Below are positions 8,793-43,714 of a stretch of DNA of 49,389 nucleotides, piece by piece. The notes beneath the pieces were generated by a model that saw only the letters and a list, made by a program, of their open reading frames with translations, was not told the DNA's origin and searched no databases. The translations under genes and the position numbers were made by a program. This stretch comes from Patescibacteria group bacterium (GTDB lineage Bacteria > Patescibacteriota > Microgenomatia > UBA1406 > GWC2-37-13): positions 1 to 49,389 of the forward strand of contig JAOAFZ010000002.1 in the NCBI GenBank assembly GCA_026415975.1. The letters run 5' to 3'. Position 1 is the stretch's first letter; each line of letters begins with the position of its first letter.

Positions 8793-8831
8793 TTGGCATC
8801 GGAGAACAGTTATACATGGTGGTATTATTCT

Positions 8832-9620
<789 letters not shown>

Positions 9621-35824: not shown

Positions 35825-36721
35825 ATGGAGATTCCGTGTACCGATATTCGCAAGGTAATAGAGGAGCGCCTTGCGACGGATGTATCCTTACTTGTGGCAC
35901 AGGGAAAACGGATTCAACTCACGACGGTTCTCATCGGATCAGCCGAAGAACAGCTTTCCTTTGTTCAGATCAAGCAAAAACTCGCTAGCCGGCTCGGAAT
36001 CGGTTTCCGATTTATTCACCTGAAAAAAACACCACTGTACGAGTCGTTTATACGGCTCATTAAAGAGGAGACTTCCAATCCGGCAACAACTGGCATAATA
36101 ATACAGTTGCCATTACCGCACACTCTTCAGAGTGATACTCTCTATTCAATAATCCCCGTACTCAAAGAGGTCGAAGGACACCGGGAAAAATCGCCGTTCC
36201 TGCCACCTATCGGCAGAGCAGTACTTACCGGATTGAAGTATGCTTTTTTTCAGTCTCTTGACTATGACAAAATCTTAGTGCAGGAAAGCGATAAAACATT
36301 TTTCCACTCACATCTGAAGTTCAAGAAAGTAGTACTGATTGGCAGGGGGCTTACCGGTGGTCTTCCAATCGGCAAAACCCTCACTCATTTCGGTATTCCC
36401 TATGTTAACATCTCATCATCAACCGATCCGACTATTGCTCATGAATTTATTGGATCAGCAGATGTAATCATTACTGCGGTAGGAAAACAGGTCATTACAC
36501 CCGATATGATCAAAACCGGTGCGATTCTTCTTAATGTGGGTCTGCGCTCTGAAAACGGAAAACTACGGGGCGATTACGATGAGACCGAGATAGCGGAAAA
36601 AGCCGGCGCCTATACGCCCACCCCGCGCGGATTGGGGCCGATAGATGTCCTTTATATGTTCCGGAACCTCGTAGATGCTGCACAACTCCAGACTAAATCA
36701 GTTACAGTTCTTCCTCGATAG
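35825..36721 (+). CDS. folD: Divergent FolD (methylenetetrahydrofolate dehydrogenase/cyclohydrolase)
   Basis: The 298-residue product has the two-domain FolD fold: TTGIIIQLPLP in the N-terminal part, a Rossmann NADP domain with VVLIGRGLTGGLPIGKTL, and TPTPRGLGPIDVLYM near the end. Catalytic Lys is kept in FVQIKQKL, but the preceding Tyr of the YxxxK motif is Phe. The PDKDVDG block reads VLKEVEG, and the PCTPxG motif is replaced by RAVLTGL. The family normally interconverts methylene-, methenyl- and 10-formyl-tetrahydrofolate. With these changes one activity may be lost or altered. A promoter ends 5 nt before the start; miaA follows within 16 nt and is probably co-transcribed. Confidence 0.82.
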   Translation: MEIPCTDIRKVIEERLATDVSLLVAQGKRIQLTTVLIGSAEEQLSFVQIKQKLASRLGIGFRFIHLKKTPLYESFIRLIKEETSNPATTGIIIQLPLPHTLQSDTLYSIIPVLKEVEGHREKSPFLPPIGRAVLTGLKYAFFQSLDYDKILVQESDKTFFHSHLKFKKVVLIGRGLTGGLPIGKTLTHFGIPYVNISSSTDPTIAHEFIGSADVIITAVGKQVITPDMIKTGAILLNVGLRSENGKLRGDYDETEIAEKAGAYTPTPRGLGPIDVLYMFRNLVDAAQLQTKSVTVLPR

Positions 36722-36736
36722 GATATTCAACATGCT

Positions 36737-37681
36737 GTGAAAACTATCCACGTAGTCACCGGACAGACAGCTACAGGAAAAACACAATTTGCTCTTAACC
36801 AGGCAGCACGTACTGGAGGAGCGCTCATTAATTTTGATGCCCGTCAAATATATCGGGGACTTGATATTGTTACAGGAAAAGACACCAAAGGCGCCCACTT
36901 TTCTGTATGGAATAAAGTCAACGGAGTAACGGCCGGCTTTTACCTAATGGAAAAAGGAATTCCGCTCTGGCTTTATGATATAATTGAACCCGGAGTGCCC
37001 TTCTCCGCATTCGAGTATGAGCAGGTAGCTCTGCCTGTTCTCGATCACTTGCTTAAGCTTCATGACACCGTGTATCTGGTCGGTGGTAGCTATTTTTACC
37101 TCTACAATCTCCTGTATCAGCAGACACTCACCACCGCTCCGCCTGATATGAAGCTTCGAGAATTACTAAGGTCAAGAACGCTCGAGGAGCTTCAGCAGCT
37201 TGCATACACCTTAAATGAGGATGATTTTCTGAATCTGAATAATAGTGATAAGATGAACCCCAGGAGGTTGATCCGGTTCATTGAGCGGGCGCGACTTGGG
37301 GAACGACATACCGGGAGTCTTTCCTTTGAACCGGTTATACACCGGAAGCTGGGGCGGAAACCGGAAGAACTGAAGCTTGTCTATACAGCATTCCGTTTTG
37401 CGGATACCGGTAGCTTAAAAAGGCGAATAGAACGCCGCATTGAGTCACGACTTGACGAAGGAGCACTCTCGGAGGTGCAGTCGCTCATACAGTCCGGAGC
37501 TGACTTTAATTCTCCCGGTTTTAATTCAATTGGCTACCGTCAGATCGCAACGTATTTGTCCGGTACGGCAACCCGGGAGTGGTTGATCAGGGAATGGGGG
37601 ACGAAAGAAAGACAGTTTGCAAAAAGACAAATGACATTCATGAGACGTGATCCTCATCTTATCTGGTTCACTATCCCTTGA
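36737..37681 (+). CDS. miaA: tRNA dimethylallyltransferase
   Basis: The 314-residue enzyme adds a dimethylallyl group to A37 of tRNAs that read codons starting with U. The P-loop is GQTATGKT, followed by NFDARQIYRGLDIVTGK (the family's D..QxYRGxDIxTxK motif). YLVGGSYFYLYNLL and a C-terminal FNSIGYRQIATYL are also typical. The start is GTG at 36737; a nearby ATG at 36732 is out of frame and stops at once. It lies 16 nt after folD with only a weak box (GATATT), so co-transcription is likely. Confidence 0.92.
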   Translation: MKTIHVVTGQTATGKTQFALNQAARTGGALINFDARQIYRGLDIVTGKDTKGAHFSVWNKVNGVTAGFYLMEKGIPLWLYDIIEPGVPFSAFEYEQVALPVLDHLLKLHDTVYLVGGSYFYLYNLLYQQTLTTAPPDMKLRELLRSRTLEELQQLAYTLNEDDFLNLNNSDKMNPRRLIRFIERARLGERHTGSLSFEPVIHRKLGRKPEELKLVYTAFRFADTGSLKRRIERRIESRLDEGALSEVQSLIQSGADFNSPGFNSIGYRQIATYLSGTATREWLIREWGTKERQFAKRQMTFMRRDPHLIWFTIP

Positions 37682-37713
37682 AATGAACGCTCCGGCATGA
37701 AATAATGAATACC

Positions 37714-38712
37714 ATGTCCGCGCCGGATTCCAATTTTACTCATTTGCCCCCGGGTGTAGCACATGACAGCCGGTCGCCTGTGCTTTCGGTTAATGAACAG
37801 CGCAAGCGATCCCGGAAGCCTTTGACGGCACTCTCCAATCTTGTTATTGTCCTTGGTATAGTTTCATTAATAGGGAGTCTTGCGTATGCTATTACAGGTC
37901 GGCAGAACACGACTGCGACCCGCGCGGCGACCGATCCTCTTGTTGCAGCATCGGTTCAGCAGGTTCCGCTTTCTACATTAGAACTCACCCGGGGTTTTTC
38001 TACCATACCCGTTTCCTACAAGGGAACCCCTATTCCCTCGAATCTTGCAGAAGAGGGGAGAAAGCTGTATCCTGACATGTCTGAAGATCAGCGCACTGCC
38101 TACATAATCAATCGTATTGTTTTATATTACCTGCTCAAAGACGTCCTTGACGAAAACGGAATAGAGTACAGGAAAATTGAAGGGGACGTAACGTTTGCTG
38201 CAATCGAGAATTCGCTCCCGAACATGAAGAGCCAGTTCGACTTCAATCTTTTGCACCGCGCCGACTATGTATTCCTAAAAGTATATTTTGTCGCATTTGA
38301 TAATGACTATCGTGCACGGGAAAAGTTTGGCCCTAATTTGCAGGAAAAAGCACTTGCAGTTATATCCAGTTATCGCGATAAACTTGCTGCAAACCCAGCC
38401 AATTATCAGGAGATTCTTGACGAGGCAAATGCAGATCAAGACGTTATACTGCTTACCAACGGTGAGATGAACATTCATGTGAGAGGTTATTTTGCAGACT
38501 TGAACAATGTACCGGCCCAGGATTATTATATCTACGATGAAGAATTTGATCAGTTGCTCTTCAGCCTTCCCGTTAATCAGGTTTCCGAGGTGCTCACATT
38601 AAACAGTACAAGTCCATACATGTACATAGTAGTCTATCCGACACGAATTGAGAAAAAAAAGTATCTGTCAATTAAAGACGTCATCGCGGAAAGGATGTCA
38701 CAGTTCCAGTAA
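37714..38712 (+). CDS. Membrane-anchored SurA/PpiC-like protein with TTATRA motif
   Basis: The product is 332 residues. A basic cytoplasmic N-terminus and one membrane helix (about 41-61) are followed at once by QNTTATRA. The next part resembles the SurA N-terminal chaperone domain (YKGTPIPSNLAEEGRKLYP, then YIINRIVLYYLLKDVLDENG). The C-terminal 70 residues (FDQLLFSLPVNQVSEVLTLN, then YMYIVVYPTRIEKK) resemble the end of a parvulin prolyl isomerase. This is similarity by eye, and the central isomerase core is weak. A TGA-AATAAT box ends 7 nt before ATG 37714, favouring it over ATG 37705. A paralogue lies at 41248-41850, with the Cys-rich protein between them. Confidence 0.65.
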   Translation: MSAPDSNFTHLPPGVAHDSRSPVLSVNEQRKRSRKPLTALSNLVIVLGIVSLIGSLAYAITGRQNTTATRAATDPLVAASVQQVPLSTLELTRGFSTIPVSYKGTPIPSNLAEEGRKLYPDMSEDQRTAYIINRIVLYYLLKDVLDENGIEYRKIEGDVTFAAIENSLPNMKSQFDFNLLHRADYVFLKVYFVAFDNDYRAREKFGPNLQEKALAVISSYRDKLAANPANYQEILDEANADQDVILLTNGEMNIHVRGYFADLNNVPAQDYYIYDEEFDQLLFSLPVNQVSEVLTLNSTSPYMYIVVYPTRIEKKKYLSIKDVIAERMSQFQ

Positions 38713-38717
38713 AAAAA

Positions 38718-41234
38718 GTGAAATCAATCCTGAAAAATATCGCACTCATGGGGATAATCAAGTTATCCGCAGGAGTAATTTTAATTGTTATTGCCGGTTT
38801 TATTGTGGTTACGTCTGCAACATCACAACCGGGTTCAGGCCCGAATGCCGGCAGACTCACTACCGCAACCCGAGCAGCAGATCCTGCCTGCGGAAACAAG
38901 TACGTTGATAGCACACGCTGTACAGATCCTCCAGCTGCCGTTGACTGCGAGGTCGTATGCGATAATGGTCGGAATCCCCGTCCGGTATGCGGCCCATGTC
39001 CCCGCAGAGAGTCTGGACAAAAGCAGACCTGTAACCGCTACAGAGATGAAAATAATACTCATCCTCCAACCTGCCAGCCAGGTCAGTACAAGTGGTGTGA
39101 ACAGAAATGTACCAGTTGTAGTCCAGCTCAAAATTGTGAAGCAATCTGCGGAGCGTGTGAGTCGGGAGGACAAGCTCCTCCCCCGCCAGGTGGTGGAGCT
39201 CCCAATCCAACTCAATCTGCTCAGCCGACGCCAGAGCCCACCAGAGCTCAAGGGGAGTACTTGCATGGAACCAATTGCCGATACAGAGGTAGTGGATGCA
39301 CACCGGCAGAATTTAATGGAGTGGGGTATCCCTTACCGGGGCAGATGTTTTATTGTGTAAATCCAGCGTACACAGGAGCAGACGGATACAAGTACGGATT
39401 TGTGGAAGCCCGCGGGATATCCTGTGACGACGGGACCGCCTGTGCCGGAAGACCCCGCGGATATCATACCGTAGCATCCGGTTGCGGGAATCCTATAACC
39501 TGCGATGGCCCAGAACCAACAACCCCTCCAAACGAACCGACGCGTCCTCCCCCGACTGTCTGTCCGACAGTATATAAGGGTCGGTATTGCGAAACGAAAG
39601 ATGCACCAAACTGCTTCTATGTCGATGTGTACAACAATTGTCAGGAGGATGTGTACGACTTTCCGAAGGGGGACTGTCCCTGTGGAGAACCCACTAAGCC
39701 CCCACCTCCTACTGCTACACGTCCTCCTCCGAGAACGGTAGAGTCACCACCACCCTCTCCAACTCCCGGACCTGCAGGTACGTGTACTGCGCTCAATGTC
39801 AGTCTGGAAAAGGGTGGTTCGGTACAGGTCACCAGTGCCAGTGCAAATAATGTGCTTCCCAGAACTCCTGATCCCGGTGAAAGGATTACAATTAGTTCAG
39901 CGGCGGGGGAAGGAGCAGCGTGGGCTGGCTTCTGGATGCGTCCTCTGAATTCTCCGAACCAGTACGATTCAAGCAGAAACGAATACACAATCGAATCAGC
40001 CTGTGCCTTCTATTTACTTACTCCCGGCGGACAACCTGCGGGGGAGAGCGGTACCTTTACCATGCCCGACTGGAAATCCGGTAATTTGATACGAAACGAC
40101 AATTATGGACAGCGGAACTGCGTCGGGCGACCAATAAATTTCGATTCGGGGGTAATCTTCGGTGTAGTCTATCTCCAACAGAATATAAGTTTTGGTGCTA
40201 GTACCTGGTGCCGGAATGTGGGTCCTGCAACAACCGGAGGCACAATTCACGTAGGAAACCGAAACACTGGTGAGTCCTGTGTCAACTGGTGCGTTGCGCA
40301 GACTCGTGTGGTACAGCCTGCCTCAGTCTGCGGCCGTGAGTGTTCGGATAGTAATCCCTGTGCAGAGGGTCTCCAGTGTATTGCCACCACTGGAGGAAGT
40401 AGATACTGTTCTCTACCACAATTTGTTCAACAATGTGCGGCAGCTCCCAGTGAAACTACCTGTTGCTCGCCTCCACCATCCACACCCACACCCACACCCA
40501 CACCTACGCCTACGCCTACACCACAACCGAATGCGTGCGGCTACCAAGGATGTAGCGATACGAACCCATGTCAGGAAGGACTGATCTGCTTGCTTGCCAA
40601 CAACGGGAACCGGTATTGTTCAGAGCCCCGGTATAGTAACGCTTGTGCAAATAACCCGAATCCGACAAGTTGCTGCCAGGCGCCATCACCGACACCAACT
40701 CCACCTCCGACAGCCACCCCAACTCCAACGCCGACACCAGCTCCGGCTCGCTGTGGTAATCCATGTGGTGAAAATATCGGAGTCTGTGAAAATGGTATGT
40801 CCTGTGTACAGACACCAAACGGTCGCCTCTGTTCAATGCAGAATTTCGTGGGTGCATGCGTACGTGAGGGCACCTTCCAGGCCTGTTGTACCGAACCTAC
40901 ACCCACGCCACAGCCGACGTTTACGCCTCTCCCGACGTACACGCCTCTGCCAACATACACGCCACAGCCGCCTCAAATACAGACAGTTGTTCAGCAAGTG
41001 CCTGTGCAGCAGCCCCCACAAATTCAATACATTCAGCAAGTCCAGCCGACCTATGTGCCCCAAGCCCCGCCTCCCACATTTACCCCGCTTCCAACTTACA
41101 CACCATTCCCGACACAGCCACCTCAACCCACCTATACATTGCCGCCTCAGGAGCTGAAGAATGCCGGCAATCCACTTCCGTTTGTAATAGCCGGAGTACC
41201 AGTGCTGTTACTTATTCTCGGCATGTTCTTGTAA
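38718..41234 (+). CDS. Large Cys-rich, Pro/Thr-rich surface protein with TTATRA motif
   Basis: The product is 838 residues. One N-terminal membrane helix (about 11-35) precedes GRLTTATRAADPACGNK. A Cys-rich region (about 57-280) is followed by Pro/Thr linkers and a Cys-poor beta-type domain (about 360-540). Three related Cys modules follow, of the form C...CSDxNPCxEGLxC...N..RYCS..........CC (about residues 545-730), separated by TPTPTP linkers. A Pro/Gln/Tyr-rich stalk and a C-terminal hydrophobic tail (LPFVIAGVPVLLLILGMFL) end it. So it is anchored at both ends or cleaved at one. Many disulfides are expected outside the cell. The GTG start lies 5 nt after the SurA-like gene, which suggests co-translation. 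The family is not recognised; an adhesin or stalk role is inference. Confidence 0.75.
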   Translation: MKSILKNIALMGIIKLSAGVILIVIAGFIVVTSATSQPGSGPNAGRLTTATRAADPACGNKYVDSTRCTDPPAAVDCEVVCDNGRNPRPVCGPCPRRESGQKQTCNRYRDENNTHPPTCQPGQYKWCEQKCTSCSPAQNCEAICGACESGGQAPPPPGGGAPNPTQSAQPTPEPTRAQGEYLHGTNCRYRGSGCTPAEFNGVGYPLPGQMFYCVNPAYTGADGYKYGFVEARGISCDDGTACAGRPRGYHTVASGCGNPITCDGPEPTTPPNEPTRPPPTVCPTVYKGRYCETKDAPNCFYVDVYNNCQEDVYDFPKGDCPCGEPTKPPPPTATRPPPRTVESPPPSPTPGPAGTCTALNVSLEKGGSVQVTSASANNVLPRTPDPGERITISSAAGEGAAWAGFWMRPLNSPNQYDSSRNEYTIESACAFYLLTPGGQPAGESGTFTMPDWKSGNLIRNDNYGQRNCVGRPINFDSGVIFGVVYLQQNISFGASTWCRNVGPATTGGTIHVGNRNTGESCVNWCVAQTRVVQPASVCGRECSDSNPCAEGLQCIATTGGSRYCSLPQFVQQCAAAPSETTCCSPPPSTPTPTPTPTPTPTPQPNACGYQGCSDTNPCQEGLICLLANNGNRYCSEPRYSNACANNPNPTSCCQAPSPTPTPPPTATPTPTPTPAPARCGNPCGENIGVCENGMSCVQTPNGRLCSMQNFVGACVREGTFQACCTEPTPTPQPTFTPLPTYTPLPTYTPQPPQIQTVVQQVPVQQPPQIQYIQQVQPTYVPQAPPPTFTPLPTYTPFPTQPPQPTYTLPPQELKNAGNPLPFVIAGVPVLLLILGMFL
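40481..40522 (+). repeat. CCCACA/CCTACG microsatellite encoding (Thr-Pro)n
   Basis: Seven tandem 6-bp units (CACACC/TACGCC variants) encode the TPTPTP linker between two Cys modules. Hexamer repeats keep the reading frame, so copy-number change would alter linker length without destroying the protein. Similar but less regular repeats lie at about 40681-40746 and 40898-40980. Confidence 0.7.
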
Positions 41235-41247
41235 TCTGAAATACAGT

Positions 41248-41850
41248 ATGAATAATAAGCAGATGCCCGAAGATGGACGTATCGCTGATATTAGGTATGA
41301 TCCCGCCGGTTCCGACTATCGTGGGGAAACAATGCACGATTCCACTAACCGCCCGAGACAGGGGTCATCACATGCCGCGAAACTTGCCAGCCTTTCAATT
41401 GTCTTCTCGCTCATGGTCGTAATAGGTAGTGCTGCACTTGTTGTGAACAATCGGGCTAATACTACCGCCACACGAGCCTCCAGTGAGAATCTCGGCGGAC
41501 CTGCGAGCATCTCAGAAGCCGATAAATCTCTCACCTCGCAAGTTACCGACTTTCCGGTTAAATACCGGTCAAGAGTTATCCCCCCAAACCTTGTTGATGA
41601 GGCAAACCTAAAGTATGTTTCAGTGCCGGAAAAGAGCAGGCGTGAGTATATTATCAACCGGATAGTACTCTACTATATTTATGATGACGTCCTGACAACA
41701 AATAATGTTCAGTTTCAGGGAGCACCACAACCCTTAACATTCGAAGGAATCGAGTCAGCGCTCCCGGGAATGAGTGCGATTATGCAGAGCGAGTATCCGC
41801 AACCGGAACTTTTTGTACAGGAATACCTGAGCCGGTTTGAGTTTGAATGA
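41248..41850 (+). CDS. Short SurA-N-like membrane protein with TTATRA motif
   Basis: The 200-residue product is a paralogue of the first half of the protein at 37714-38712. A membrane helix (about 47-67) is followed by RANTTATRASSEN. FPVKYRSRVIPPNLVDEANL and YIINRIVLYYIYDDVLTTNN then match the SurA-N-like part of the paralogue, including an identical YIINRIVLYY. It ends after EGIESALPGM plus about 30 residues and lacks the isomerase-like C-terminal part. It is intact from ATG to stop and not obviously truncated by mutation. It lies 13 nt after the Cys-rich gene. Its role is unknown; a co-chaperone or decoy for the larger paralogue is speculation. Confidence 0.65.
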   Translation: MNNKQMPEDGRIADIRYDPAGSDYRGETMHDSTNRPRQGSSHAAKLASLSIVFSLMVVIGSAALVVNNRANTTATRASSENLGGPASISEADKSLTSQVTDFPVKYRSRVIPPNLVDEANLKYVSVPEKSRREYIINRIVLYYIYDDVLTTNNVQFQGAPQPLTFEGIESALPGMSAIMQSEYPQPELFVQEYLSRFEFE

Positions 41851-41869
41851 TTTGCACTACTTTAGAGTG

Positions 41870-43636
41870 TTACTTTCTATTCCTGTTGAAGAGCGATAAA
41901 AAGGCTTCCTTTGGCACCTCCACCCTGCCGATCATCTTCATCCGTTTTTTTCCTTCCTTCTGTTTTTCAAGAAGCTTCTTTTTCCGACCCACATCCCCGG
42001 CACCCACTACTTTCGAATTTTTCACCAGAACATCTTTCCGATAGGCAGAAAGCGATTCCGAGGCTATAATTTTCCCTCTAAACTTTGCCTGTATCTTGAT
42101 ATCGAACTGTTGACGCGGAATGAGCTCTTTCAGTTTTTTCGTGAGTTCCTGAGCTTTTTCGAAGGCACGATCTTGCACAACGATCTCGGAAAATTCTTCT
42201 ACCTCCTCACCATTGAGCAAGAGGGACAGTTTATCAGCAGTTACCGGTTCGTATCGGAGAAACTCCCAGTCAAGCGATGCATATCCGGAGGTCACACTCT
42301 TAAGACGGTCGAAAAAATCGGAGATCATCTCGGACATAGGCATCACGTAATGCATCGTAACCTGGTTCTTGTTGTCCATGGTTACAAACTTCGCCCGGTA
42401 TTCTTCGCAGAGGGAAAGGATAGAGCCGATGTGGTCGGATGGAGCAACGATCATTATCTTGACAATCGGTTCATAGTACTGTCCGTTCCGGAACTCATAG
42501 TCTACTTGCGGGGGAGTGAGCACCAGGCTCAGCCCGAACTCACGCTCCAGCCGCTCGCGGACTACATCTGCATGCAACAGGCCAAGGAAGCCGACACGAA
42601 AACCCGCCCCAAGGGCCTGACTGTATATCGCGGTAAACTCGAGCGATGAGTCGTTCAGGTATAGTTTATCGAGCGCCTTCTTGAGGTTTAGATAATCAGC
42701 AGTGTCGGTGGTAAACATCGAGGCATACACAATCGGTTTTACTTTCTTGTAACCGGATACTGCCTTACTGCGACCTTTTCCATCTACAATCGTGTCGCCT
42801 ACACGTACCTGATGAATATCCTTCAGGTTGGTTACAATGTACCCGATCTCACCCTCTTTGAGCGCGTCAATCTCGCGAAGTTCCGGATCGAAAATACCGA
42901 CTTCCGTTGCCTCGAAGGTCATACCGTTGCTGGCAAGCTGCATCTTCATTCCGGACTCAAACGTACCGCGAAAAATCCGGGTAAAGGCGATTACTCCTTT
43001 GTGCTGGTCGTAATAGGAGTCGAAAATTAGCGCCTGGAACTCTTCCGGCTGCGAACCATCGGGAAGTGCATCTGCAGGTGCCGTTTCGGGTTGCTGGGGG
43101 GCAGGGATACGTTCCAGAACAGCATCCAGAAGCTCCGGGACATTGGTTCCAGTTTTTGCGGATATCCCAAAGACGGTATCTTCCTCGATGCCCAGGAAAT
43201 CCACTATTTCTTTCATTACTTTCTCGAAATCCGCCGCGGGCATATCGATCTTGTTCACTGCGGGGATAATGATCAGGTTTTTTTCGATCGCTTTGTAGGC
43301 ATTCGCTATAGTCTGCGCCTGAATGCCCTGGGTTGCATCAACGAGTAGAATTACTCCCTCCACACAGGCGAGCGTTCGATCCACTTCGTACGAAAAATCG
43401 ACGTGCCCGGGCGTATCGATCAGGTGCAGGGTATAGCCTTTGTAGTGCATTCTTACGGGGGCCAGCTTAATTGTGATTCCCCGTTCGCGCGAGATGGGGT
43501 TGCGGTCCAGAAGCTGTTCTTCGTGACGACCGCGCTCGACGGTATGCGTCAGCTCAAGAAACCGGTCGGCAAGCGTTGACTTGCCATGGTCGATATGGGC
43601 AATAATCGCGAAATTACGAATCAGGGGGTTAGACAT
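41870..43636 (-). CDS. lepA: Elongation factor 4 (LepA)
   Basis: The 588-residue ribosome-dependent GTPase has a G domain with AHIDHGKSTLADR, RERGITIKL, DTPGHVDFSYEV and NKIDMP. EF-G-like domains follow, with HADVVRERLEREFG. The LepA-specific C-terminal domain ends near AKFRGKIIASESLSAYRKDV, KNSKVVGAGDVGRKKKLLEKQKEGKKRMK and a terminal VEVPKEAFLSLF. ATG 43636 is preferred to an upstream start because the motif SNPLIRNFAIIAHIDHGK begins right after it and TGG-TATAAT ends 9 nt upstream on the minus strand. It is complete. Confidence 0.97.
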   Translation of the reverse strand: MSNPLIRNFAIIAHIDHGKSTLADRFLELTHTVERGRHEEQLLDRNPISRERGITIKLAPVRMHYKGYTLHLIDTPGHVDFSYEVDRTLACVEGVILLVDATQGIQAQTIANAYKAIEKNLIIIPAVNKIDMPAADFEKVMKEIVDFLGIEEDTVFGISAKTGTNVPELLDAVLERIPAPQQPETAPADALPDGSQPEEFQALIFDSYYDQHKGVIAFTRIFRGTFESGMKMQLASNGMTFEATEVGIFDPELREIDALKEGEIGYIVTNLKDIHQVRVGDTIVDGKGRSKAVSGYKKVKPIVYASMFTTDTADYLNLKKALDKLYLNDSSLEFTAIYSQALGAGFRVGFLGLLHADVVRERLEREFGLSLVLTPPQVDYEFRNGQYYEPIVKIMIVAPSDHIGSILSLCEEYRAKFVTMDNKNQVTMHYVMPMSEMISDFFDRLKSVTSGYASLDWEFLRYEPVTADKLSLLLNGEEVEEFSEIVVQDRAFEKAQELTKKLKELIPRQQFDIKIQAKFRGKIIASESLSAYRKDVLVKNSKVVGAGDVGRKKKLLEKQKEGKKRMKMIGRVEVPKEAFLSLFNRNRK

Positions 43637-43714
43637 GAATAGAAAATTATACCATACGCTATACTGTCCCATAGTAAGGTCGAGCGAGACTTACGCTAAA
43701 GGTAGATTGCGGTG

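Follow-up and report, generated by a model that had tools for sequence, protein, structure and literature searches.

The DNA analysed here (the window) is a stretch of 49,389 nucleotides that forms part of contig 3 of a Patescibacteria group genome of 1.31 Mb, assembled in 10 contigs and 96.6% complete. Three consecutive genes for surface proteins, P1, P2 and P3, were found between two borders conserved by synteny, and the features of this locus are as follows.

35825 to 37681, forward strand: folD and miaA, the conserved left border
37705 to 38712, forward strand: P1, 335 residues, with a 45-residue cytoplasmic N-terminal tail (NFTHLPPG), one transmembrane helix, TTATRAA and a weakly SurA/PrsA-like ectodomain
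37909 to 37926, forward strand: TTATRA in P1, codons ACG ACT GCG ACC CGC GCG
38718 to 41234, forward strand: P2, 838 residues, with an N-terminal transmembrane helix, TTATRAA, a Cys-rich ectodomain (57 Cys), a Pro/Thr-rich stalk and a hydrophobic C-terminal tail
38859 to 38876, forward strand: TTATRA in P2, codons ACT ACC GCA ACC CGA GCA
41139 to 41231, forward strand: C-terminal tail of P2, PPQELKNAGNPLPFVIAGVPVLLLILGMFL, a degenerate LPXTG-like signal and the sole such tail in the genome (E 3.2e-9)
41248 to 41850, forward strand: P3, 200 residues, paralogous to the N-terminal half of P1, carrying a transmembrane helix and TTATRAS, the C-terminal half of P1 being missing
41461 to 41478, forward strand: TTATRA in P3, codons ACT ACC GCC ACA CGA GCC
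41870 to 43672, reverse strand: lepA, the conserved right border

The gene order gyrB-ppa-gyrA-folD-miaA-[surface genes]-lepA-pyk, with gene names that we take from established knowledge of these families, is identical in Candidatus Roizmanbacteria RIFCSPLOWO2_01_FULL_41_22, which was the closest named relative found and the sole match to the P1/P3 profile in a scan of named genomes. P1 and P3 share 38% identity over the N-terminal half of P1, and P2 is unrelated to them. Searches of the PDB with P1/P3 and with P2 gave no useful match. An 851-residue protein with an ordinary signal peptide, encoded in the same genome (L034:10662-13217), shares a 47%-identical stretch with residues 371-529 of P2. 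Apart from the locus, window positions 8793-9314 hold a 173-residue ORF for an isolated N-terminal segment of a P-type cation ATPase (Pfam 7.3e-20); the full-length ATPase frame is absent downstream, and this may be a decayed gene.

In all three ORFs, TTATRA lies in frame after the N-terminal membrane helix, at the positions and with the codons that the sequence-only reading of this DNA had given. It begins approximately 6-8 residues beyond the estimated end of the helix in P1 and P3 and approximately 15 residues beyond it in P2, as judged by a simple hydropathy scan that covered a partial sample of the genome (the window and 16 sampled stretches, ~354 kb). When the whole genome was searched for the corresponding DNA pattern, four matches were obtained; three are the sites in P1, P2 and P3 and the fourth encodes Ser in place of Arg, so that TTATRA occurs in no other protein of the genome. 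The juxtamembrane windows of P1 and P2 have a seven-residue run, TTATRAA, in common (p 3e-4, obtained empirically from randomly paired juxtamembrane windows). Of the six TTATRA codons, five differ between P1 and P2, and every difference is silent, with zero replacements; the peptide, rather than the DNA, is therefore what has been conserved, as the sequence-only reading had proposed, and recent copying of the hexapeptide as DNA is unlikely. Because P1 and P3 are paralogues, their agreement in TTATRA is partly a matter of descent, which does not hold for the agreement with P2. The same pair test inside other genomes gave no significance except between related modules; exact sharing is thus stronger in the window than elsewhere.

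To follow the locus across the family, lepA was used as a locator of the equivalent interval, and 40 intervals were read, some of them cut by contig ends. Besides the window and the relative G002, helix-anchored surface proteins lie between folD-miaA and lepA in twelve further genomes from seven genera. The interval (35825-43672 in the window; others in L048, L052, L055-L058, L061, L064, L112 and L125-L127) is occupied in about 16 genomes when G089 and G090, which were partly seen, are included, and is mostly empty or differently filled elsewhere. Neither counterpart in G002 has TTATRA in its literal form, yet its place is taken there by ITKNSKA in the P1/P3 counterpart and by ITIKTKA in the P2 counterpart. 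Other membrane-proximal sequences of locus proteins include SSRA, RSRA, KTKA, QSKA, KTRA, TPQA, STQA and RSEA. Within 30 residues of the helix, 13 of 20 locus proteins contain [ST][RK]A, compared with 3 of 209 windows downstream in the same proteins (p 7e-14), and for [ST][RKQE]A the figures are 16 of 20 and 6 of 209; these counts include related proteins, so that independence is overstated and the p-values are optimistic. Unsupervised expectation maximization on 18 non-redundant locus windows returned [QR]-[VN]-[TL]-[TI]-x-[TS]-[RK]-A. From the end of the transmembrane helix to the Ala of the element there are 11-18 residues in the locus proteins and 21 in P2, whose spacer carries a seven-residue insertion relative to the G002 counterpart. 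The relaxed motif recurs with unrelated ectodomains at the equivalent place in other genera. Judged by these comparisons, the literal TTATRA is a lineage-specific spelling of a wider element, which Roizmanbacteria-like (Microgenomates) relatives carry at the same chromosomal place.

The element is not confined to the locus. Three consecutive fibronectin-type-III-like proteins on contig 3 (L036; Pfam was run on the third) continue after the helix with MTRASSEE, LTRASDS and ISRASYS, and similar fibronectin-type-III proteins of other genera have GTRAAD, FTRAAD, FSTASD and FTQAGD. Among other single-helix exported proteins [ST][RK]A is less frequent, with 16 of 152 against 39 of 1174 (p 2e-4, again optimistic because related proteins are counted), and it was present in 132 of 6124 cytosolic windows. 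An unsupervised search of all non-locus proteins for a general juxtamembrane motif yielded a weak mixture that stood barely above controls, from which it follows that the element marks a subset of exported proteins, not all of them. A protein adjoining the fibronectin-type-III genes (L036:15264-15992) ends in a second class of C-terminal tail, FENVIGAAVPGIILLAVGIILKILI, and tails resembling it (FDNVVKxxIPGxxLLxLG) are present in other family genomes.

These recurrences bear on whether the motif has a role of its own. Helix and motif could simply have been inherited as one module, copied and then joined to different ectodomains, the motif itself doing nothing specific. The paralogy of P1 and P3 would fit this, as would genus g13, where a whole N-terminus (FFSLAIQKYQVLTxSRA) is common to unrelated ectodomains. 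However, P1 and P2 have the motif in common and not the helix, and both the silent-only codon differences and the reappearance of the motif in unrelated fibronectin-type-III proteins from several genera point to selection; we consider inheritance alone to be distinctly unlikely.

P2 belongs to a class of locus proteins in which the two ends are kept, namely the N-terminal anchor and an LPXTG-like C-terminal tail, while the middles are swapped and a Pro/Thr stalk is present. The ectodomains of P2 and its G002 counterpart, for example, are unrelated. The C-terminal tails are strongly alike across genera, with a mean score of 37.6 against −17.4 for other C-terminal helices. A profile of these tails, run at E 0.1, a threshold that admits weak matches, had hits in 37 of the 72 genomes, with one to three in each, and in the source genome it found P2 only; the class thus comprises roughly one protein per genome. 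The tails of several relatives look plainly LPXTG-like at the sequence level (LPVTG, IPSAG, IPSTG, PPVSG), and P2 has LKNAG. No positively charged C-terminal end was seen in the locus tails, which finish in LGLxL-type hydrophobic residues, and the NCBIfam sorting-signal models matched neither P2 nor four relatives. Sortases (PF04203) are encoded in 72 of 72 family genomes, with four in the source genome. Near the cytoplasmic N-terminus, many members of the class and several partner proteins carry an NYTPL/NFTPL-like motif (L184, L186, L187, L190, L192-L196, L048, L061, L064 and L026), with which NFTHLPPG in the N-terminal tail of P1 is comparable. YSIRK-type signal peptides likewise have a short conserved motif on the cytoplasmic side, differing in sequence and position.

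Compared with the LPXTG sortase substrates of Gram-positive bacteria, the class is alike in the order of its parts: an N-terminal export signal, a variable ectodomain, a Pro/Thr stalk, a candidate short [LI]P-x-[TAS]-G-like motif and a hydrophobic C-terminal stretch. It is unlike them in that the motif is degenerate (LKNAG in P2, QPPG or QKPG in others), the tails have an extra conserved W and P and no basic end, and there is about one substrate per genome. When proteins elsewhere on the chromosome were picked by their tails, regardless of the N-terminus, most were found to have a membrane-proximal [RKQP]-A (VPRAS, PSKAE, TKQRAV, IGRAN, KSRAG).

The two proteins flanking P2 had been described as SurA-like. 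At the sequence level P1 matched neither SurA nor PrsA, nor anything in Pfam, NCBIfam or the PDB, and P3 is likewise without a match to SurA_N or parvulin. A structural model of P1, built from three sequences and of low confidence (mean pLDDT 52), aligned weakly to SurA, PEB4 and PrsA (Z 3.6-4.0), which made up three of the top four rows. This predicted likeness of fold is suggestive and no more, and it extends to P1 only; P1 has no recognised parvulin domain, and P3, without the second half of P1, is too short for a chaperone of the SurA/PrsA type. No convincing case for homology to P1 could be made for the upstream partners of G031 and G080, the partner in G032 is weakly fibronectin-like, and in many genera there is no partner or the interval is empty. 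We therefore find no support for the proposal that the locus is a dedicated chaperone-substrate export unit: the resemblance to SurA is weak, P3 is short, the upstream partner differs or is absent in other genera, and the motif also occurs elsewhere.

The earlier suggestion that the motif is a processing or sorting site fared better. The relaxed motif recurs in other genera and in tail-matched relatives, and its small-x-Ala appearance makes a putative processing site a fair reading. In 44 family sites, hand-picked, aligned by hand on the Ala and including many related sequences, position −3 is small in 80% and charged in none, and +1 is never Pro. The source genome encodes two S26 signal peptidases. 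The small-x-Ala fit and these two enzymes make cleavage after the Ala the best single reading; one of the two peptidases (L025:1294-2790) carries a fused CAP (SCP-like) domain (Pfam: S26 1.4e-29, CAP 8.2e-7). We accordingly favor, with roughly even confidence, the view that the motif is a cleavage site of the signal-peptidase-I type whose c-region is long, and that a sortase then acts on the tail.

Under the favored reading, the three genes would make up a surface-protein locus that keeps its position within a Roizmanbacteria-like (Microgenomates) family, and the N-terminal helix would serve as export signal or anchor. TTATRA(A/S) would be the local spelling of [ST]-[RKQ]-A, followed by A, S, D, E, G or T, lying about 12-20 residues outside the membrane, and an enzyme of the signal peptidase I type would cut behind the Ala, at a site set in an unusually long c-region. 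P2 would then be displayed on its Pro/Thr stalk by way of the degenerate LPXTG-like tail, for which one of the four sortases would probably be responsible, whereas P1 and P3 would either leave the cell or remain close to the membrane. What can be read from the sequence is the motif and its recurrence, the synteny, the conservation of the tail and the signal peptidase and sortase genes, and from these we infer cleavage, sortase handling and display. In Gram-positive sortase substrates the signal peptide is removed, and a Pro/Thr stalk placed just before a C-terminal anchor would make most sense with a free N-terminus.

Several features argue against parts of this scheme. Family members resemble sites of type I signal peptidases (S26) in having a mostly small −3, Ala at −1 and no Pro at +1, but the 11-21 residues from helix to site exceed the usual c-region, and Arg, Lys or Gln is conserved at −2. 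The helices are long and the cytoplasmic tails of P1 and P3, of about 45 residues, are more like those of signal anchors. Ordinary signal peptides with AxA near the helix exist in the same genome (e.g. VDAQA in L034, VQA in L036), which sets the motif-bearing proteins apart as a distinct class. In other families of the class, where the sequence reads R-x-[RQ]-A-[STAD] (e.g. QQELRKRAT, INQDLRQQAD), −3 is often D, K, Q or E (RDRA, RKRA, RERA, RQQA), residues that ordinary signal peptidase I should reject. As to sortase handling, the tail is without a basic end, and LKNAG of P2 is a poor LPXTG.

The long spacer, the long helices, the basic −2 and the often charged −3 elsewhere keep two further readings in play. 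According to one, the signal anchor is uncleaved: the helix would stay in the membrane, and [ST]-[RK]-A would be a membrane-surface or docking element, such as the end of a helix, a contact with lipid headgroups or wall, or a site bound by an export or folding factor. Long helices with long N-terminal tails suit this reading, as do the NYTPL-like cytoplasmic motifs of many relatives, the Arg, Lys or Gln at −2 in 82% of sites, which signal peptidase I does not need, and the form Q-x-[DE]-[LIV]-R-x-[RQ]-A in other members of the class, which resembles the end of a protruding helix. Set against these are the small −3 and the Ala at −1 within the family and the occurrence of the element with unrelated ectodomains and variable spacers; P2-type proteins would, moreover, be anchored at either terminus, so that the stalk would have to loop back. 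On balance an uncleaved anchor appears rather unlikely.

According to the other, a dedicated membrane protease distinct from ordinary signal peptidase I would recognise [RKQ]-A in exported proteins throughout the Microgenomates. The element does persist from one family to another without constraint at −3, and outside the family R-x-[RQK]-A-[STADGEN] was found in 8 of 42 juxtamembrane windows against 1 of 245 downstream windows, although that survey comprised 42 proteins only. The CAP-domain fusion is an unusual form of S26 peptidase, but no candidate enzyme is encoded alongside the locus, and we regard a dedicated protease as improbable. A wider and more speculative proposal, to which we attach a small probability, is that the Microgenomates use a distinct long-spaced [RKQ]-A signal outside a long helix, a dedicated membrane peptidase and a degenerate sorting tail, by means of which each genome would present a single principal variable surface protein, encoded at a locus of constant position.

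We found no description of the motif or of the locus in the open-licence literature, which is weak evidence of novelty. For these host-dependent, uncultured bacteria, a fixed locus whose products have constant ends and swapped middles offers a way to pick out, in many genomes of the family, the protein that is probably the main one displayed at the surface. The membrane-proximal element, for its part, allows mature N-termini to be predicted in a form that can be tested. If cleavage there were carried out by something other than ordinary signal peptidase I, it would represent a new protein-sorting route.
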